A stretch of DNA of 64,000 bases from Ignavibacteria bacterium (GTDB lineage Bacteria > Bacteroidota > Ignavibacteria > Kapaibacteriales > UBA4661), in NCBI GenBank assembly GCA_013298775.1, contig JAAFIV010000024.1, positions 1-64,000 of the forward strand, in the 5' to 3' direction. Positions within the stretch are counted from its first letter, which is position 1; each line of letters begins with the position of its first letter. Of the stretch, positions 39,610 to 61,086 are shown piece by piece. The notes below the pieces were generated by a model. It was not told the origin of the DNA and did no database searches. It was given only the letters and a program-made list of their open reading frames with translations. Position numbers and translations under genes: made by a program.

Positions 39610-40722
39610 TTAATTGGCGGTGAATAAGGAGGCTGTTTCTTGTTCGTCGTTACCTGCCAATGCTTCACTAGGCGTATGTACCGCTTCGGGTGTGTTATTC
39701 TCACGGGGCGACATAATGCCTTCGCGTTCCCATTCTCTGCGAATCACATCCAGCACCGATGTACGCGCCATAACGCGCTCGTTGATTTCCTCGCCCATTG
39801 CCAGCATTCCATCCAGTTCCATGAAGGTAAACGGTGGCTTTGCGTAGCGCATGGCAAACTTGCGCAAGTGCAGCAGTGCTTCATCTTGCGAGGATTTTCC
39901 TGTTTGTTCGGTGAAATTATACGACGGCGAAGTAAGCCAATCCTTCGGAGACCAATTAAACACGCGCTTGACCGAATGTTCGCTGTAATGCTCATTCCAA
40001 AGTGGACGATAAAAACCGTCCAGTTGCAATTCGTGTTCTTCATAGAACCCGTGCCGTCCTGATTTGAAATCAACGAGAACTGTTTCAGTAATATCCTTGA
40101 ATGTTTCTTTTGGCTGTCCTTTGTTTTCGCCCGACTTATAGAGTTCACCCCAAAAACCTTTCTGGCGAAACGTCGCATTGCACACAAGGTCTATTGCCCC
40201 ACCGTAGCCGTGCCTCGACACAAGCGGAATTTCAATCGCTATTGGTTCAATGGTGTAATCGAGTGCGAATTGGTGAAAGGCAAGAATGTCTTGGCGCAGG
40301 CGTTGATTCCAGTGTGAGGTATCATACAACAAACGATGTTCAGCTTTGTAGCTTTCAATCAATGTCGGAATGGCGGCAAGATTGAGTTTGCGCTGTGTGA
40401 GGTAGTTCGCAATCGTAATGTGCATCAGCGTTCCGTAGTCTGCTGATTGTTTCTTGATTTCCTCCGCTTTCTCGAATCCGTGTTTAGCGTACCACGCAAG
40501 GAGGTGATACGGCATTTTACTTGTATGACGTACAATCGTTGTAACGCTGGGAACATAGACAATATCGTTGCGCTGTACGCTCAACGAAACATAGTAACGA
40601 CCGTCGGGCGTTTCAATGCGGCGCACAGGATTTGGAGCAACGCGAATGGCGGTAGGATTGAAGTACAATGCCATGACCTGCTCCATCGTCATGGATGTTG
40701 TGAAGGACGCTTGTTTGCTCAT
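39610..40722 (-). CDS. PD-(D/E)XK nuclease, RecB/Cas4-like
   Basis: 370 residues. Visible motif series: GTLMHITIANYL (His/first helix), GYGGAIDLVC (Asp), TVLVDFKSG (D-x-K core) and EHELQLDGFY (Gln of the QxxxY-type motif). This is the RecB-family nuclease order found in phage exonucleases. Together with the neighbour at 38781 it may form a phage recombination pair. The start overlaps the stop of the gene upstream (ATGA). Confidence 0.85.
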   Translation of the reverse strand: MSKQASFTTSMTMEQVMALYFNPTAIRVAPNPVRRIETPDGRYYVSLSVQRNDIVYVPSVTTIVRHTSKMPYHLLAWYAKHGFEKAEEIKKQSADYGTLMHITIANYLTQRKLNLAAIPTLIESYKAEHRLLYDTSHWNQRLRQDILAFHQFALDYTIEPIAIEIPLVSRHGYGGAIDLVCNATFRQKGFWGELYKSGENKGQPKETFKDITETVLVDFKSGRHGFYEEHELQLDGFYRPLWNEHYSEHSVKRVFNWSPKDWLTSPSYNFTEQTGKSSQDEALLHLRKFAMRYAKPPFTFMELDGMLAMGEEINERVMARTSVLDVIRREWEREGIMSPRENNTPEAVHTPSEALAGNDEQETASLFTAN

Positions 40723-41396
40723 GCCTCACCGCCTTTCATGTTCAGCAACTGTGTGGTTGTGGTAAAAGAGTCGGAATGAGAAAACTCGTCTCGAAGGATG
40801 TTGTGAAGGCGGTTTTGCAGTTCGGGATAGGCATTCAAGACGCGGTGCTGTGTAGCGCGAATGCTCCCCGATTCAATATGTTCAACATATTCACAAGTAA
40901 TGCTTTCAACAGCTTGATATGCGCCCGGAATATCGCAAAACGACAAATCAACCTCTGAAAGGTCGTATTCGATAGACGCACAGTCATCGGCAGTGAGGTG
41001 AATAACAATGCGGGCATTGCCATACACGCCAAAGCGGACGTACATCGTCAGTGTGTCGTTGAAGTTATTGTTGTTGCTTCGAGAGAAAGAGCGGCGGCGA
41101 GGTTTGGGAGCGGTGCTGCCCATGATAGATTGCTCAATATCTTGTTTGATGTTACTGAGGAAAACATCATATCCAGCACGGTCGGCAGGATTGGCAAGAC
41201 TTTCGCGTTCAAGGACGGCAAGACGAAAAACGGAAAGTTTGCGCTGGATGTCGGCGCGGTCGTCGTGGGGAAAAGTGTGAAACGTGCTACGGCGCAGTGA
41301 AATTTTTTTTGTGCCGAAACCCGCTCCACGCCGTGTTTGTTGCACGGTCGGTGAGGGTGCTTGTTGCATTGCAACAAGCAAAGTGTTATTTTGCAT
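40719..41396 (-). CDS. hypothetical first gene of the recombination/replication operon
   Basis: 225 residues (216 if Met10 at 41369 is used). A basic, disordered N-terminal third (RRGAGFGTKKISLRRS, KPRRRSFSRSNNNNF) is followed by a beta-rich region (LTMYVRFGVYGNARIVIHLTADDCASIEYDLSEVDLSFCDI). Not recognised. It overlaps the nuclease gene by 4 bases and starts beside palindromic operator candidates. Confidence 0.65.
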   Translation of the reverse strand: MQNNTLLVAMQQAPSPTVQQTRRGAGFGTKKISLRRSTFHTFPHDDRADIQRKLSVFRLAVLERESLANPADRAGYDVFLSNIKQDIEQSIMGSTAPKPRRRSFSRSNNNNFNDTLTMYVRFGVYGNARIVIHLTADDCASIEYDLSEVDLSFCDIPGAYQAVESITCEYVEHIESGSIRATQHRVLNAYPELQNRLHNILRDEFSHSDSFTTTTQLLNMKGGEA

Positions 41397-42100: not shown

Positions 42101-42370
42101 TCAAGCATCGGGAGTTTGTTCATTAGGGTGTTTCTCCTTCTTGTGCTTCAAGATTTTTTCTAAGCCGATATTTGTATAAAACACCTTGCCGCGATGGTAT
42201 TGCCAATCAATATGTTCTTCCAACAACGGCTGCTGGGCGTAAACGTATTTTCTCTGTGGTTCTTGAAATCCCACTGAAACTTTACCGCCTAATCTAAGCA
42301 TCATCAAATGCTGGCGGCTGTATCCAGTCTTTTCTAAGATTTCAGATTGTTTAATTAACGTCGTTTCCAT
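42101..42370 (-). CDS. HTH regulator divergent from parA
   Basis: 89 residues. LIKQSEILEKTGYSRQHLMMLRLGGKV is a helix-turn-helix; HIDWQYHRGKVFYTNIGLEKILKHKKEKHP parallels the protein at 41537 (KDFFFKRGTYYFTDEALTRILIHKKEAP). It is the first gene leftward from a 40-base palindrome that also fronts parA, so it may be an autoregulator of the divergent promoters. Confidence 0.75.
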   Translation of the reverse strand: METTLIKQSEILEKTGYSRQHLMMLRLGGKVSVGFQEPQRKYVYAQQPLLEEHIDWQYHRGKVFYTNIGLEKILKHKKEKHPNEQTPDA

Positions 42371-42425: not shown

Positions 42426-42465
42426 TTGCAACTGACAAATAAAAAATTTTATTTGTCAGTTGCAA
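42426..42465. promoter_or_regulatory. 40-base palindromic operator between the HTH gene and parA
   Basis: Arms TTGCAACTGACAAATAAAA (42426-42444) and its complement (42447-42465) are perfect 19-bp inverted repeats around two bases. The site lies in the 235-base divergent intergenic region. The half-site TTTGTCAGTTG recurs at 45769-45779 in front of the leftward gene at 45452-45718, suggesting one regulator for both. Confidence 0.8.
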
Positions 42466-42605: not shown

Positions 42606-43325
42606 ATGATTATCGCCATACTGAACAACAAAGGCGGTGTAGGAAAGACCACAACCGCCGTGCATCTTGCCTATGCACTCACGAAAAAAGGCAAAAAAGT
42701 TTTATGTGTGGATATTGACGAGCAGGCAAATTTGCTGCTCCATATCTTTCCAGCAAATGACGTTTATGCCCTTGAATCCCGTCAAAACGGAACATCATTG
42801 CCGATAATGACGCATTCAAGCGGTGTAGATGTGCTACCGCTTTCATACTGGAAGAATACTAAGCACTTCGCCGACACGATACGCCTTCATGCAAAGGGCT
42901 ATGATTATACGCTCCTTGATTGCCCGCCCAGCCTTGAGGCGCGTACCTTAGCAGCTTTAGAGGCAGCTACTACTGTTCTGATTCCAACCCAACCTGAAAA
43001 TCTTTCTTACAAAGGTTTGATTAAACTCATCAATTTATGCGAAGAGTACACCTTGCCAGTGCTTGGGATATTTGTAACGTTATACGATAAGAAAAAAGCT
43101 GCTCATAACTTCTACTTGCCCGAAATTGCTCAACAATTTGCTGGGCATTATATCAGTGCAGCGATTCCGAATAGTGCATTATTTCCTTCAGCATCAGCGA
43201 TGAATAAGATGGGGCATGAATGGGCGGGAAAGAAAGCTAACCCTGGCTTGATTGCGTATGATGACATTGCAGACTATATCATTAAGAAATCAATTCAGCT
43301 TTCAGCAAAGAAAGGGAAGGTGTAA
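42606..43325 (+). CDS. parA: ParA-type partition ATPase
   Basis: 239 residues with the deviant Walker A KGGVGKTT (9-16), DIDEQANL (switch I) and YTLLDCPPS (Walker B). It has no N-terminal HTH extension, as in type Ib ParA. It probably segregates the phage genome together with the ParB encoded 2 bases downstream. Presence of a partition pair suggests a low-copy extrachromosomal state like that of phage-plasmids, although here the phage lies among chromosomal genes. Confidence 0.9.
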   Translation: MIIAILNNKGGVGKTTTAVHLAYALTKKGKKVLCVDIDEQANLLLHIFPANDVYALESRQNGTSLPIMTHSSGVDVLPLSYWKNTKHFADTIRLHAKGYDYTLLDCPPSLEARTLAALEAATTVLIPTQPENLSYKGLIKLINLCEEYTLPVLGIFVTLYDKKKAAHNFYLPEIAQQFAGHYISAAIPNSALFPSASAMNKMGHEWAGKKANPGLIAYDDIADYIIKKSIQLSAKKGKV

Positions 43326-43326
43326 T

Positions 43327-44151
43327 ATGGCAAAACTGAAACCCGATACGACAGCTGACCACGCACGTACACCAAAATCAATGCGTTCAACGATGAAATT
43401 GTCAGAGGTAAAAAGTATTTCTCGGTCATCATTGCGTATAAATAATTCTAATGCTGATTACTTTCGCAAGGAGGACGACGCATACTTTGAACGATTGACA
43501 GAGGACGTGAAGCGACGCGGATTTCTTGTACCACTGATTGCAAAAAAAGATGGAACGTTGCTGGCAGGACATAACCGCTTGACCGTTGCCGAACGACTAG
43601 GTATTGACTTTCTTCCCGTGCAGTACGTTGAATTGCCGCTCACCAAAGAAGAGGAACGGGAATTTGTGATAAAGGATAATCTCCTCAGACGGCATCTTTC
43701 GGCAAATGAATGGATTGAAGTGTATAAAAAACTATATCCCGACTTTGAAGATACCTTCCTCAATGAAGAAACGAGGACAAAAAGCGGACGCTTGAAAAAC
43801 GGCGAAGAGCGTTTAACGATTGCCAAAATTGCTGCGGACGTGGGGCAGAAGGAAGTTACCGTCAAGGCACAAATACGGCGTGAACGCGAGAAAAATACTC
43901 AAGGAGCGAAACCAGAAAAAGGATACAATGTATCCTTTTCCAATTCCAAAAATTCCGATACTACGAAAGCTGTTTCCAAAATAGCAGATGATAGGGAAGA
44001 GCGGGACGAAAAAGGATACAATGTATCCTTTTCCAAAAAAGAGAAAACATACGTGCGGAATGTAGAAATGCTGGCACAAGAGTTCAATGAATTAGGTAGT
44101 GAAGCACAAAAAGAGATTCGCAAACACTTAAAGAAAATTATCAAGGAGTGA
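43327..44151 (+). CDS. parB: ParB-type partition protein carrying parS-like sites in its own gene
   Basis: 274 residues. The ParB/Srx domain lies at about 55-125 (FLVPLIAKKDGTLLAGHNRLTVAERLGIDFLPVQYVEL). GHNRL replaces the G-ERR box of CTP-binding ParB. A helix-turn-helix follows (ERLTIAKIAADVGQKEVTVKAQIRRE) and then two identical peptide segments EKGYNVSFS, which are encoded by two copies of a palindrome. The C-terminal helix (VEMLAQEFNELGSEAQKEIRKHLKKIIKE) could dimerise. Confidence 0.8.
   Translation: MAKLKPDTTADHARTPKSMRSTMKLSEVKSISRSSLRINNSNADYFRKEDDAYFERLTEDVKRRGFLVPLIAKKDGTLLAGHNRLTVAERLGIDFLPVQYVELPLTKEEEREFVIKDNLLRRHLSANEWIEVYKKLYPDFEDTFLNEETRTKSGRLKNGEERLTIAKIAADVGQKEVTVKAQIRREREKNTQGAKPEKGYNVSFSNSKNSDTTKAVSKIADDREERDEKGYNVSFSKKEKTYVRNVEMLAQEFNELGSEAQKEIRKHLKKIIKE
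43917..43939. promoter_or_regulatory. parS-like palindrome, copy 1
   Basis: Arm AAAAGGATACA (43917-43927), a central A, and the complementary arm (43929-43939): 11-bp perfect arms. It is embedded in parB and encodes part of EKGYNVSF. The same ~29 bases recur at copy 2. Confidence 0.65.
44010..44032. promoter_or_regulatory. parS-like palindrome, copy 2
   Basis: Identical 23-base palindrome with centre at 44021, 93 bases from the centre of copy 1, in the same reading frame of parB. Identity extends a few bases on both sides while the intervening sequence differs, so the site rather than the protein repeat seems to be what is kept. Confidence 0.65.
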
Positions 44152-44224: not shown

Positions 44225-44312
44225 CAAAGAGGCTTAGTAGGTTTCTTTTGTACGCTGATTGCTATTGACTGTTACATCAATTCATTGATTGTCACATCAA
44301 TTCAATTCAACG

Positions 44313-44722
44313 ATGCACAATACCGCCAAGAGTACGCAAATTGAATCTTCCAGCACTTTTACCCAACAGTTTATCCTTAATCAGTTTTTGCAAGACAAAA
44401 TCGTAGTGGTGGAGAATACGAGAAGAATATTTGTTGCTTGCAAAGAAATAGTGTACTTCAAAGCCCAGCGTTCTTCAACTGAACTACATACACGTAATGG
44501 CAAGATATATGTGATGTCTGCCAATATCGGGTCTATTGCGGCACAGCTACAAGAGCATAAAACAGGGCAATTCCTTCGTGTTCATAAATCATATCTGTGA
44601 ATTTGGAGCATACAAAGGGCATCGAACGCAAGCGTAAGCCCGCGCAAATGCTACTGCTTGTGAATGAGAAAATTGAGATACCTGTTGGCGGAGAGTACCA
44701 ATCGCTTTTTCACAGGGTCTAA
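44313..44722 (+). pseudogene. LytTR DNA-binding domain protein, interrupted by a frameshift
   Basis: The frame from 44313 gives a LytTR domain (IFVACKEIVYFKAQRSSTELHTRNGKIYVM...QFLRVHKSYL) and stops at 44600. Read from 44597 in the -1 frame the domain continues as VNLEHTKGIERKRKPAQMLLLVNEKIEIPVGGEYQSLFHRV and stops at 44720-44722, exactly the missing end of a LytTR fold. Either a base has been lost (pseudogene or assembly error) or a truncated product is made. No receiver domain is present. Confidence 0.75.
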
Positions 44723-45790: not shown

Positions 45791-46236
45791 AAACTTATGT
45801 GGTAAAAAATAGGCAAATTATTCTAATTTTTATTATTGAAGTGGGTGGGTTACGATATTTATATGTATAAATTATGCATAAAGTGGGAAATATTTGGAAA
45901 TTAAGTGAGAAAATATGATATTGCGTCCGCCAACCAACATAACATACCAACTCGAAACAACAGCCACGCCGAAACCTACGCTACAGGTTTCACAGGAGGC
46001 GCGGTCTATTCCTGCTCTCTGACAAAACGAAGGCATCTGAAGTCCCACCGATGCCGCCAAAACACGTGGCAAATACTCAATGTTGATGTTCGTCCCACCA
46101 CGCGAAAGCGTTACAATACCTATTGACGCTGTAATACTGCGTCAAATCCCCGTGTTTTACAGTTTTGCCTGAGTAGGAATCTTCATGTGAGTTCGCATGA
46201 AGAATCTGCATTATGTAAACTTGTTTCGATTTGGCT
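45791..46236. other. 446-base stretch without a recognised gene ahead of the deazaguanine operon
   Basis: The left part (to about 45905) is very AT-rich. The right part has several stem-loops: GGCATC/GATGCC near 46032-46055, TTGACGC/GCGTCAA (46123-46145) and TTCATG/CATGAA (46182-46207). It probably holds the late promoter and a leader for queD. I could not match it to a preQ1 riboswitch class. Short frames on both strands (for example 45872-46072 minus) show nothing convincing. Confidence 0.5.
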
Positions 46237-46740
46237 ATGGCTTTTCTTTCGCCCCCTCTTTCCCCGTGCGATATTGTCAAGCAGTATCGGTTTCATGCTG
46301 CGCATCGCAATCCTGAGCTGCGAAATAAGTGCAGCAATATTCACGGACACACCTATCAACTCGCGTGTACATTCCGCACGTTGTCGGAACATATCAACCT
46401 CAAAAGCGGTATCACGCTTGAGTTTGGAGAAATTGACCGCCGCGTCGAGGCAATTCTTTCCGAGTATGACCACTCGTTGTTATTGCATAATGACGATTCT
46501 TTGCTTCCGTATCTCCAACAATTCCCCGAATCCCTGAACATACGCACCTTTCCCCACCCGACAAGTGCGGAGTGCTTGGCATTGCATTTCCTTGAGCGAT
46601 TTCTTCATGTAGGTTTGCCTGTATTGAGCATTTGCCTCATGGAAACGCCGCGCAGTGGTGTAACGGTCTATAATCAAATGTTGAACACACAGGTTTTTTC
46701 ATTGTACCAATCCAACGATGACACAGAACATGATTACTGA
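46237..46740 (+). CDS. queD: 6-carboxytetrahydropterin synthase QueD
   Basis: 167 residues. FHAAHRNPELRNKCSNIHGHTYQL contains the zinc ligands His23, His36 and His38 and the catalytic Cys32 of the QueD/PTPS family. LEFGEIDR, EYDHSLLLHND and HPTSAECLALHFLERF match later conserved positions. It converts dihydroneopterin triphosphate to 6-carboxytetrahydropterin. First gene of the phage 7-deazaguanine operon; the next gene starts 23 bases before its stop. Confidence 0.93.
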   Translation: MAFLSPPLSPCDIVKQYRFHAAHRNPELRNKCSNIHGHTYQLACTFRTLSEHINLKSGITLEFGEIDRRVEAILSEYDHSLLLHNDDSLLPYLQQFPESLNIRTFPHPTSAECLALHFLERFLHVGLPVLSICLMETPRSGVTVYNQMLNTQVFSLYQSNDDTEHDY

Positions 46741-47434
46741 TGCTGCTGGGACGATGCAGGTTACCCCGCATTCTCCAAACGTAACGATAGGCAACGGGCT
46801 ATCTTCCCCACTCCCTTTTGAGCGCATTACAACACTGCGCGTGAACGAGATTTTTTATTCGTTGCAGGGTGAAGGTGGTCGCGCGGGCGAGGCTTCCATG
46901 TTTATTCGTTTGCAAGGCTGTAAGACAAAACACGCTTGCTACGAGGCAGGTATTCGCTGTGATACGGAGTTTGAAAGCGGAACGAAAAAAACACTGTATG
47001 ATGTTCTGGAAATAGCACAAAATCTAGCTCCGCAGTGCAAATGGCTTGTTTGGACAGGTGGAGAACCTACGGACCAGCTTACGGCAGAAATAGTGCAGTA
47101 TTTCGCCATGATGGGCTATTTGCAGGCGGTTGAAACAAGCGGTTTGAACCCTGTTCCTGAAGGGATAGACTACATCGCGCTGTCGCCAAAGGTTGCCGAA
47201 CACGTTATTCGCAAGAACTTCCCCGCAGGAAATGTGAATGAGCTGCGGTATGTACGCCAGCCGGGGCAGGCAATTCCTGAGCCGTCTATCATCGCCGAAC
47301 AGTATTATCTTTCGCCTCATTTTGACGGCGAAGGCTTGAATGCCGCATCATTGCAGCATTGTATCTCTCTCTGCCTTTGCAATCCCGTTTGGCGGCTTTC
47401 GGTGCAACAGCATAAACTCTGGGGTGCGCGATGA
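46718..47434 (+). CDS. queE: 7-carboxy-7-deazaguanine synthase QueE (radical SAM)
   Basis: 238 residues (a later Met5 is possible). EIFYSLQGEGGRAGEASMFIRLQGC is the QueE opening. WLVWTGGEPTDQL is the GGEP SAM-binding motif, and IDYIALSPKV is the QueE substrate region. The cluster cysteines are Cys68, Cys74 and Cys81 (C-x5-C-x6-C-D-T), not the usual C-x3-C-x2-C; variant spacing is known in the family. It makes CDG from carboxytetrahydropterin. Overlaps FolE by 4 bases. Confidence 0.92.
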   Translation: MTQNMITDAAGTMQVTPHSPNVTIGNGLSSPLPFERITTLRVNEIFYSLQGEGGRAGEASMFIRLQGCKTKHACYEAGIRCDTEFESGTKKTLYDVLEIAQNLAPQCKWLVWTGGEPTDQLTAEIVQYFAMMGYLQAVETSGLNPVPEGIDYIALSPKVAEHVIRKNFPAGNVNELRYVRQPGQAIPEPSIIAEQYYLSPHFDGEGLNAASLQHCISLCLCNPVWRLSVQQHKLWGAR

Positions 47435-48042
47435 TGAACGATGAACAACATAAGGCTGTCCATACTCTTGGGGAATCTTTCCGCCTCGTCTCTGCAACAG
47501 CGAACATTACCGATTTGTGTATAACGCTCAACCTCGACATGACACAGGCAGGGAGAACGCGCACACCAGAGCGGTTTGCGAAATTTCTTACAGAGTTTTT
47601 TGATGCGAAACCGCCTGAATTAACCACCTTTCCCTTTCATGGTTCTCCTCATGGCTCCCCGCAAATGGTGGTCGAGAGCAACATACGGTTTTATACGCTT
47701 TGCGAACATCATCTCTTGCCCTTTTTCGGGACGGCGGCGGTTGCCTATATCCCGCAAGAGAGCGTTATCGGTATCTCGAAACTGGCACGTATCGTTGAGT
47801 ATGTTTCGCGTGATATACAAATGCAGGAACGGATGACCGAAGAAATCGTCAAAATGCTGAATGAAGCTGTTGCGCCAAATTATGGTGTAGCGGTGCTGCT
47901 CCGAGCGCGGCATTTGTGCCAAGAAATGCGCGGCATTCGTGCTAAAGAAGCCTGGACAACAACCAGTGTCTATACGGGAAAATTTACGACCGATGACCAT
48001 TTGAAAGTTGAATTTTTGTCGCACATCTCCCGTGATGGATGA
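47431..48042 (+). CDS. folE: GTP cyclohydrolase I FolE
   Basis: 203 residues. FYTLCEHHLLPFFG (Cys91, His93, His94) and LLRARHLCQEMRGI (His161, Cys163) are the zinc and catalytic motifs of type I GTP cyclohydrolase. VIGISKLARIVEYVSRDIQMQERMTEEI is the conserved central helix. It turns GTP into dihydroneopterin triphosphate, so the phage supplies the first step of the pathway. QueF is excluded by the full CEHH/HLC arrangement. Overlaps its neighbours on both sides. Confidence 0.93.
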   Translation: MMNDEQHKAVHTLGESFRLVSATANITDLCITLNLDMTQAGRTRTPERFAKFLTEFFDAKPPELTTFPFHGSPHGSPQMVVESNIRFYTLCEHHLLPFFGTAAVAYIPQESVIGISKLARIVEYVSRDIQMQERMTEEIVKMLNEAVAPNYGVAVLLRARHLCQEMRGIRAKEAWTTTSVYTGKFTTDDHLKVEFLSHISRDG

Positions 48043-48326
48043 AATTTTACTATTCCACGATAACCGAGTTTGCGCGTCAGTACACTGTCCATCTCACCAA
48101 GCGTGAACGAAACGAATACGGGCGGGCGTGTAAACGTCTGAGTGCGGAGCGCGACTGCCCCATAAAAACCGTTCCGAACACTTGTTACGGCTCGGTGAAC
48201 GCTTATCGCAACGATATTCTTTTGGAAGTTTTTTTTTCCTCCCCTACCCATCATGCCAAAGAAAAAACAGCACAACAGTCGGAGCGCAAAAATTCGCGTT
48301 CGCAAGGTCAAACTTCTCTCTGGTAA
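48039..48326 (+). CDS. small hypothetical protein within the deazaguanine operon
   Basis: 95 residues, ATG overlapping the FolE stop (ATGA). The first ~65 residues (KFYYSTITEFARQYTVHLTKRERNEYGRACKRLSAERDCPIKTVPNTCYGSVNAYRNDILLEVF) look like a compact alpha/beta unit. The C-terminal ~25 overlap the next gene in another frame. Its conserved position between folE and queC makes a link to the modification pathway possible. Confidence 0.55.
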   Translation: MKFYYSTITEFARQYTVHLTKRERNEYGRACKRLSAERDCPIKTVPNTCYGSVNAYRNDILLEVFFSSPTHHAKEKTAQQSERKNSRSQGQTSLW

Positions 48327-48816
48327 AACGATTATTGAATTTGAAAAAATGAACGGCGAAGCTGAGGTACTGTGGGATAGCCTCTCGCTTACGAGCAGTG
48401 CCGAGCCAGTGCCAGAGATGAAAATTGCCGTCAAATCGCTTGCGCCCGCCGTGTGTGCTATGTTGGAATTGCCCGACGAGTGGGAGCGAAACTTGATTGT
48501 GCATTCTGTGATGATGCGCTACAACGATGACGATATGACCCCGTGCGGAGCTATCATCGGAGCTAGAAAAGTGCTGAAACACGGCTCTTCCCCGTTCAAT
48601 TTCAATTCGCCCTACCGCCCCACGACGGCGAAAGATGCTGCTTCTGCGCTGCCGCCTGAAGCTGTCTCGCTGATTGATGAAGTTCAGGAACACGCGCTTG
48701 ATTTTATCAACGGCAAGCGCGGACAGGAAGAATTATTCCCCGATACCTTGACAAACTCGATTACACATTCACCAGAGCAAACCATGTTTGATGAACACAA
48801 AGGACAAACTCTATGA
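48253..48816 (+). CDS. hypothetical protein within the deazaguanine operon
   Basis: 187 residues. A basic start (MPKKKQHNSRSAKIRVRKVKLLSGKTIIEFEKM), then SLAPAVCAMLELPDEWERNLIVHSVMMRYNDDDMTPCGAIIGARKVLKHGSSPFNFNSPYRP, and an acidic tail. No family recognised. Its stop overlaps the QueC start (ATGA), so it is translated with the pathway genes. Confidence 0.7.
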   Translation: MPKKKQHNSRSAKIRVRKVKLLSGKTIIEFEKMNGEAEVLWDSLSLTSSAEPVPEMKIAVKSLAPAVCAMLELPDEWERNLIVHSVMMRYNDDDMTPCGAIIGARKVLKHGSSPFNFNSPYRPTTAKDAASALPPEAVSLIDEVQEHALDFINGKRGQEELFPDTLTNSITHSPEQTMFDEHKGQTL

Positions 48817-49508
48817 AAAACGACCTTCGACCGATGAAAGAGCGAATAGCATTGGTGCTGCTTTCAGGCGGTCAGGATTCTACAACGTGCCTGTATTGGG
48901 CAAAAAAGCAGTTCCGCAAGGTGCTTGCTCTTGGCTTTGACTATGGGCAGCGTCATCGGGTAGAAATTGAGTGCGCTATCACGATTGCTGCTGAAGCGGG
49001 CATTACCTTTACGACGCTCCAATGCTCGGGATTGCTTCGTCATTCCTCACTTGTGAACCATGACCAAGATACCAACGAACCACATCCGTTGAACCCAACA
49101 TTGCCGTCAAGTTTCACGCCTGGACGGAATGCCTTGTTTTTAACGCTGGCAGTTGGAGAAGCATATTGTCTCGGCATTACCGACTTGGTCATTGGTGTTT
49201 GCCAAACGGACTATTCAGGGTATCCCGACTGCCGCGAGGCGTTTATTTACGCCCAGCAGAGAGCGTTGTCATTGGCACTTGATACGCAGTTTTGCATCCA
49301 CACGCCGCTTATGCACCTTACAAAAGCAGAAACATGGAAACTCGCAAACGAGCTTGGCTGCTTGGAAATCATTCGCGCGCAGACGCACACCGATTATCAC
49401 GGCAACCGCACAACGCTGAACGAATGGGGCTACGGGAACCTTGATAATCCCGCAAGCGTCCTCCGTGCGAAAGGCTACGAGGAAGCAAAAGCGAAGGGCT
49501 GGGTGTGA
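48813..49508 (+). CDS. queC: QueC-like 7-cyano-7-deazaguanine synthase lacking the zinc cysteines
   Basis: 231 residues. SGGQDSTT (18-25) is the ATP PP-loop; FTPGRNALFLTLA and GVCQTDYSGYPDCR are the other QueC hallmarks. In E. coli QueC the C-terminus reads TCYNG...GDGCGHCAACNLRANG with four zinc cysteines. Here the aligned positions are TDYHG (193-197) and GYGNLDNPASVLRAKG (206-221), so all four become Asp194, Asn209, Asn212 and Ser215 while the flanking residues stay. The enzyme is probably active by a zinc-free fold, and the product might be preQ0 or the amide ADG. Confidence 0.88.
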   Translation: MKNDLRPMKERIALVLLSGGQDSTTCLYWAKKQFRKVLALGFDYGQRHRVEIECAITIAAEAGITFTTLQCSGLLRHSSLVNHDQDTNEPHPLNPTLPSSFTPGRNALFLTLAVGEAYCLGITDLVIGVCQTDYSGYPDCREAFIYAQQRALSLALDTQFCIHTPLMHLTKAETWKLANELGCLEIIRAQTHTDYHGNRTTLNEWGYGNLDNPASVLRAKGYEEAKAKGWV

Positions 49509-49509
49509 G

Positions 49510-50292
49510 ATGAATTTGTACTTTGCTGGAGCGGAGCATTACCACAAGGAATTGGTTGCCGAAGGCGTACAGACTATCCTTATCACCCTTGCGCAGAAAA
49601 GAGCAATTCCGAAAACACCAGAGCGTTATCCCATTGGTACGCGCCTTATCATTGATTCGGGGGCGTTTACGTTCTTTCGCAATAATACCACCATGCCACC
49701 CGAATCATGGCTGCAAATGGTCTTGCCTCTCGTGCAGTTTGGTGAAGAAATCATCGCCCTTGACGTTATTGGCAATGCTGCAAAAACATTTGAAAATTAT
49801 ACGCTCATTCGGCAAGAGCTTCCAAATGCTATTCCGACGTTTCATGTTGGCAGCGAGATAAAGTATCTGAAACGATATTTGGAACAGACCGACCGCATCG
49901 CACTTGGAGGCATGGTGCCATTTGCAACACGGCTCGACACCTTGCGCACGATGTTATTGCCAATTTTTGCCTTGTTCTCCCGCGAAAGTTTACCGCGTTT
50001 TCATGCCTTTGGCGTGTTCAACAAACCCATTTTAGAAATGTTCCCTTTCGCCAGTGCGGATGCTTCCTCGTGGATGAGTGGGAGCCGATACAACCGCATT
50101 GAAAACCCGCTTGTTGGGAAAAGTTATGTGCGCTCACGAGACCTCACCAAAGAGCGCATCCGCAGTGTTCCTCTGCACGATGCGTGCTTACTGACCGAAT
50201 ACAACGGAAATACCCGCATACGCCGCAACATTGCGCAATACCTAGATTTGGAACACTATCTCACGCAGTTATGGCAAAAAAAGTTAGCATAA
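49510..50292 (+). CDS. dpdA: DpdA-like DNA 7-deazaguanine transglycosylase, short phage form
   Basis: 260 residues. LIIDSGAFTFF (catalytic-region Asp49), IIALDVIGN, PTFHVGSEIKYLKRYLEQTDRIALGGMVPF, FHAFGVFNKPILEMFPFASADASSW and SRYN match the TGT-like barrel of DpdA proteins. Neither tRNA-specific features nor a zinc-binding C-terminus of bacterial TGT is present. It should exchange guanine in DNA for the base made by the upstream genes. Directly follows queC (1 base) and overlaps the ParB-like gene by 22 bases. Confidence 0.85.
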   Translation: MNLYFAGAEHYHKELVAEGVQTILITLAQKRAIPKTPERYPIGTRLIIDSGAFTFFRNNTTMPPESWLQMVLPLVQFGEEIIALDVIGNAAKTFENYTLIRQELPNAIPTFHVGSEIKYLKRYLEQTDRIALGGMVPFATRLDTLRTMLLPIFALFSRESLPRFHAFGVFNKPILEMFPFASADASSWMSGSRYNRIENPLVGKSYVRSRDLTKERIRSVPLHDACLLTEYNGNTRIRRNIAQYLDLEHYLTQLWQKKLA

Positions 50293-60823: not shown

Positions 60824-60932
60824 AATGCGTTCAAAGAAAGGTGAGAAAAATGTTCGTTAAAAATGTTCGTTTATGAGTGGTCGAACAATACAGCATTGGT
60901 GAGTGAGAGGAGATGTCGTTATTCTGAATTGA

Positions 60933-61086
60933 GTATGCAAAAAGTTTTGTGTAAACGCTCCCTCATCCCCCGCCTTCTCCCAAAGGGAGAAGGAGCTAAG
61001 ACCAAGAAAATCAATATATTTTGAAGCCCTCTCCCTCTGGGAGAGGGTTGGGGTGAGGGGCGTTTACACAAAATATTGCATACGCT
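60933..61086. repeat. MITE/REP-like inverted-repeat element
   Basis: The ends GTATGCAAAAAGTTTTGTG and its near-complement (61065-61086) continue inward as TAAACGC-CCCTCA-CCC. Inside are two hairpins (CCTTCTCCC/GGGAGAAGG and CCCTCTCCC/GGGAGAGGG). This CCCTCTCCC...GGGTGAGGG pattern occurs as a dispersed repeat in many bacterial genomes. It sits between the kinase stop and the regulator and could act as a processing or termination signal. Confidence 0.75.

Follow-up and report, generated by a model that had tools for sequence, protein, structure and literature searches.

Why should a gene for a partition protein carry two identical copies of a long palindrome within its own coding sequence, and does the repeat belong to the protein or to the DNA? 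This question is raised by a parB-like gene in the stretch of 64,000 nucleotides analysed here, which is referred to as the window.

The par locus of the window and its repeated palindrome

The gene (43327..44151, plus strand) encodes a protein of 274 amino acids, which is linked to ParB by matches to PHROG ParB-like families and to a Spo0J/ParB/Noc PDB profile, and by its fold. An N-terminal ParB/Srx-type domain, with the motifs AGHNRL and KDNLLRRHLS, is followed by a helix-turn-helix (HTH), a low-confidence linker and C-terminal helices; the HTH segment LTIAKIAADVGQKEVTVKAQIRREREK (residues 163-189; 43813..43893, plus strand), located by alignment, is the presumed DNA-recognition domain. In the PDB, the family profile finds chains of Spo0J, ParB, Noc and pNOB8 ParB, and the best fold matches of the predicted structure are ParB and Noc structures; this model was built from three sequences with a mean pLDDT of 66, and therefore serves as a guide only. 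The nearest relatives of solved structure are genuine ParB/Spo0J/Noc proteins. Directly upstream lies parA (42609..43325, plus strand), encoding a Walker-type partition ATPase (Pfam AAA_31/CbiA; PHROG 164, ParA-like partition protein, E 1.8e-45). The window thus holds the parts expected of a type I ParABS system, namely a Walker-type ParA ATPase gene adjoining parB, a ParB with an N-terminal ParB domain and an HTH, and, at the level of sequence alone, a replicon-specific, dyad-symmetric parS-like site near parAB.

Both candidate sites, palindrome 1 at 43917..43939 and palindrome 2 at 44010..44032 (no strand assigned), are the 23-mer AAAAGGATACAATGTATCCTTTT, with perfect 11-bp arms and a 1-bp centre. 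Their centres are 93 bp apart and they therefore share one reading frame, in which each provides the codons for EKGYNVSFS (residues 197-205 and 228-236). A stretch of 29 bases, GAAAAAGGATACAATGTATCCTTTTCCAA, is identical around both palindromes, amid flanking bases and codons that differ. A preliminary description of this DNA had reported the identical in-frame pair, the encoded EKGYNVSF and about 29 shared bases, and each of these points was confirmed, the coordinates and sequence of the pair exactly. The two encoded peptides lie in the linker between the HTH and the C-terminal helices, mostly within residues 193-227 and 230-235, where the model has a pLDDT below 50; the centre of palindrome 1 follows the HTH by 11 codons and that of palindrome 2 by 42.

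The 23-mer is rare. With up to three mismatches allowed, dinucleotide shuffles of the window (n=100) contained no match, and the whole 5.19-Mb assembly contained it at its two parB positions only, so that the search for further copies in phage and host, which the preliminary description had proposed, yielded no third one. No copy of the 21-mer of the site was found in IMG/VR contigs, the 19-bp core (18 specified bases) had three GTDB matches in taxa that are unrelated judging by name, and a search of other phages and genomes for sequences close to the 23-mer returned none of use. Four palindromes of the window have arms of at least 11 bp, and two of these are the parB pair.

Other features of the neighbourhood are recorded here in their own right. 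A 40-bp palindrome, TTGCAACTGACAAATAAAAAATTTTATTTGTCAGTTGCAA, with perfect 19-bp arms and a 2-base centre, occupies 42426-42465 in the gap between parA and a divergent gene (5' side at 42370), and is a possible operator or bidirectional terminator. A perfect 23-bp palindrome, TGCTTGTTGCATTGCAACAAGCA, is found once in the window, at 41358-41380 within a minus-strand ORF (40722-41396), and its core resembles the parB site GTTGCANTGCAAC of locus L071. Just 3' of parB, a LytTR-domain ORF (44289-44722) ends early at 44600, with a 41-aa ORF continuing to 44722, and is possibly a broken regulator gene.

The window represents a tailed phage, with genes for terminase, portal, major head and tape measure proteins, and it combines these structural genes with parAB, as phage-plasmids do. 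Among the ORFs scanned there was no integrase, and neither a tRNA nor a terminal repeat of the contig was found; direct repeats at the phage edges, looked for as attachment sites, did not exceed 13 bases. Since host-like genes flank the phage on both sides, it is possible that the element is an integrated prophage, which would have no need of a centromere. The contig also carries a dispersed genomic repeat at 60931-61083, of about 100-150 bp, which has dozens of copies in the host genome and its relatives, some of them matching both strands. A 7-deazaguanine-like cluster at 46231-50289, with a PTPS/QueD match, a queuine tRNA-ribosyltransferase-like protein and, by eye, queE, folE and queC, suggests that the phage DNA is modified.

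Palindromes in and around homologous parB genes

Whether it is the peptide or the palindrome that is kept can be asked of the homologues. Among 99 relatives searched, 14 genomes gave about 40 matches to ParB, up to nine of them in one genome, and in the homologue loci listed a ParA-sized ORF lies directly upstream of parB. In viral contigs, no homologue was found with the window ParB as single query, and the ParB alignment retrieved two clear homologues (L036, L037) and two weak ones. The best dyad of each gene was scored with +1 per match and -2 per mismatch, allowing a centre of 0-3 bases. A score of at least 10 was reached by 21 of 39 ParB homologues, a set that includes close relatives and truncated genes and is not fully independent, as against 1.04% of synonymous-codon shuffles in which the protein was kept fixed; for a score of at least 12, the figures were 15 of 39 and 0.12%. 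As a control, 241 other long ORFs of these loci, with a greater mean length than the parB genes, gave 2.5% and 0% at the two thresholds. The window parB itself scores 11, a value reached by at most one in 200 synonymous shuffles (p=0.010). Many distinct palindrome sequences occur among the homologues, which therefore represent many separate cases.

Most genes examined carry an in-gene palindrome of their own, the sequence of which differs between subfamilies (AAAAAGGGTTCACTGAACCCTTTTT, GAGTAAAACGGAACGTTCCGTTTTACTC and AAATCAAAAGTTCAATTGAACTTTTGATTT are examples). In some genes it is repeated, as in L099, with GCAAGTGGACACTGTCCACTTGC twice, and in the viral contig L036, with AAAAACTAGAGACAATGTCTCTAGTTTTT twice, one copy having one mismatch; in the parB genes of L098, L103 and L037 a clear site was not found. 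The arms agree at 9.43 of 10 positions within one gene, compared with 4.47 of 10 between different genes. Between GGATACAATGTATCC of the window (KGYNVSF) and CGTTACAATGTAACG of L081 (RYNVTF), matched changes are seen in both arms, and in the KTE-x-SVL subfamily the residue at the centre may be R, H or S while both DNA arms are kept. The preliminary description had placed a parS-like site within parB, and had named as the case against it homologues that keep EKGYNVSF and lose the palindrome. What was found instead is that subfamilies differ in both peptide and palindrome, with the arms changing together, which lends support to a predicted ParB site; comparison of the homologous genes indicates that the DNA palindrome is conserved, not the peptide.

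The position of the sites is also shared. All scored in-gene sites lie in the linkers flanking the DNA-binding HTH and never inside it; their centres precede the HTH by 3-19 codons or follow it by 3-42. With few exceptions, the dyad is centred on codon position 2 or on the boundary of positions 1 and 2. Beyond similarity of the N-domain, the association of site with HTH is weak (partial Mantel r=0.17, p=0.007).

Further copies are found outside the genes, mostly where no long ORF runs. In five loci of the CGGAA-TTCCG clade (L070, L087, L092, L093, L097) a copy lies 2.2-2.4 kb upstream, L090, L104, L036, L071 and L075 have one at other positions, the second copy of L089 spans the stop codon, and in L088 and L073 the site is located solely between parA and parB. 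That the site dictates the repeated peptide, as the preliminary description had argued, is in keeping with such intergenic copies, where no peptide is at stake.

Where whole genomes were searched, the sites were confined to the replicon of their ParB. Both copies of GGTTCANTGAACC in the 5.19-Mb genome are on the 29.6-kb contig of its ParB; AAACGGAANNTTCCGTTT occurs once in its own genome and eight times in seven others (one or two each), always on the contig of its ParB; and GGTTGCANTGCAACC, searched in seven genomes, has two copies in one genome, both on its ParB contig. This is how private centromeres would be expected to look, unlike dispersed palindromic elements. The site TAAAACGGAANNTTCCGTTTTA accompanies one ParABS locus per genome in L070, L085, L086, L087, L091, L092, L093 and L097. 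In L070, the locus of the CGGAA-TTCCG clade adjoins ordinary chromosomal-type genes (Nramp, aminotransferase, CtaA), and the genomes of this clade also have a canonical ParB and canonical parS. The canonical consensus TGTTNCACGTGAAACA is not matched by the in-gene sites and has copies elsewhere in the genome (G000, contig C75). As the host has its own canonical ParB and parS, the ParABS with in-gene sites is an additional system.

Homologous ParB proteins were also detected on Leptospira plasmids (tblastn with the window protein) and in the LE1-type Leptospira phage LalZ_80412 (tblastn and profile). Between one and three 27-bp palindromes are found in each of their parB genes, in the linker that precedes the HTH: the L. 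noguchii plasmid has three, all perfect, pLiSL39 one perfect and one with a single mismatch, and the L. weilii plasmid and the phage one each. A scan of the 73-kb pLiSL39 gave no other perfect palindrome of that quality outside the duplicated parB region. A second parB of pLiSL39, of canonical type (L133, 33406-34287), likewise contains a pair of nearly identical palindromes within the gene, AAGGTTCGTTAACGAACCTT and AAGGTTCGTTGACGAACCTT, and the arrangement may thus extend beyond this ParB family.

A putative centromere and the alternatives

We consider it probable that the palindromes are parS sites bound by their cognate ParB, which serve as centromere and possibly as operator. As dyad-symmetric DNA sites for the ParB encoded by the same gene, they would form, together with ParA, a self-contained ParABS system with its centromere in the stretch of parB that encodes the linker. 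A dimer of ParB would dock on the dyad through its two HTH domains and then, as is presumed from other ParB proteins, be loaded as a CTP-gated clamp and spread; movement of the resulting ParB-DNA complex by ParA would let low-copy DNA be inherited. The linker could hold a fixed DNA word because it tolerates many peptides; the two copies would provide two docking sites, the repeated peptide being incidental, and ParB may in addition regulate its own gene at these sites. With a word of its own for each ParB subfamily, co-resident replicons need not cross-react.

The closest competitor assigns the palindromes to repression alone, with ParB acting on its own operon in the manner of KorB-type proteins and the true centromere lying elsewhere. 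The sites are always within or close to the par operon, and some precede the operon or separate parA from parB, as an operator might. We nevertheless regard this reading as unlikely, as no other matching palindrome was present in the loci examined or, for the cores searched, in whole genomes, and a place deep within the parB coding region is a poor one for a repressor. Moreover, ParB binding sites commonly double as operator and centromere.

A function in RNA, with mRNA hairpins controlling the translation, processing or decay of parB, would also account for arms that co-vary and sites within the mRNA, and fits the Leptospira sites, with their 3-base centres and different stems in one gene. 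Within one Leptospira parB, the inner bases are not the same in the three sites, which is not expected of a strictly sequence-specific reader and counts against a ParB site. Against hairpins stand the many dyads with 0-1 central base that are complementary to the centre, of which a hairpin can make no use; the mismatches in 50 collected sites, 4 of 17 being G-U compatible and 13 not; and in-gene and intergenic copies that keep sequence identity beyond what mere pairing demands. A hairpin function is accordingly very unlikely, though less so for the Leptospira sites. Any protein that binds DNA as a dimer could use dyads of this type, and a different regulator of the element (a phage repressor or recombinase) could bind sites that lie in parB by coincidence. 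This is scarcely credible, given that the sites accompany parB in a phage, on plasmid-like contigs and at a locus of chromosomal type, among differing neighbouring genes, and again on plasmids of Leptospira. Small selfish or mobile palindromic elements, as in Rickettsia, would explain duplicated, in-frame copies in a permissive linker. Such elements are scattered over many genes of a genome and can practically be set aside, for the site of the window has two copies in the 5.19-Mb assembly, both in parB, and the sites of the family number one to three, at the par locus only, with a sequence that differs per subfamily and a shared position beside the HTH.

If the palindromes are indeed parS sites, the parB gene of a plasmid or phage not yet characterised would directly reveal its centromere, incompatibility groups would be predictable from sequence, and many naturally matched protein-site pairs would become available for studying the evolution of ParB specificity. 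The locus would also be a clear case of a coding sequence with a second, DNA-level message that dictates a peptide. A more tentative proposal is that a portable specificity cassette of roughly 100-250 bp is made up of the HTH-coding segment together with its target site: as the parS word stands in the linker next to the recognition domain, an exchange of the HTH by recombination would carry the matching site along. ParB-parS pairs could then diverge or move without a mismatched intermediate, which would explain how a single genome (G006) can have as many as nine paralogues of ParB, each with a site unlike the others. The cassette is offered as a hypothesis, given the statistical weakness of the site-HTH association beyond shared descent.

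Comparison with known partition systems

Several 16-bp parS sites with one shared consensus are arranged around the origin of B. subtilis, and parS-359 is one of them. It lies within the coding sequence of parB (spo0J) (PMC4442127), as the predicted ParB site does here. Unlike in B. subtilis, each paralogue subfamily of the present family has in-gene sites of its own, most of which are 20-30 bp long; they are often duplicated in frame and are concentrated near the HTH coding region. A literature search for in-gene parS sites of plasmids and phages brought up the B. subtilis case alone, and the family-wide occurrence of private, co-varying and often duplicated sites in linkers beside the recognition domain appears to be new.

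A ParABS system carried by a phage is shared with the actinobacteriophages RedRock and relatives; the RedRock prophage is extrachromosomal, and the title of a paper cited in the same source names the specificity, diversity and incompatibility of actinobacteriophage parABS systems (PMC7157519). With the KorB/Spo0J/Noc superfamily and pNOB8 ParB, the window ParB has in common the N-terminal ParB fold and the HTH. It differs from that superfamily in having diverged so far that no ParB model of Pfam or NCBIfam reaches threshold, and its AGHNRL motif has GHNR in place of the usual GERR (GERRxR). The phage LalZ_80412 and the plasmids of Leptospira resemble the window in having a homologous ParB with in-gene palindromes, which there precede the HTH, and differ in that their sites are 27 bp long, with 3-base centres and ATCAAA ends; the arrangement would be shared by two phyla, provided that the host of the window is no spirochaete.
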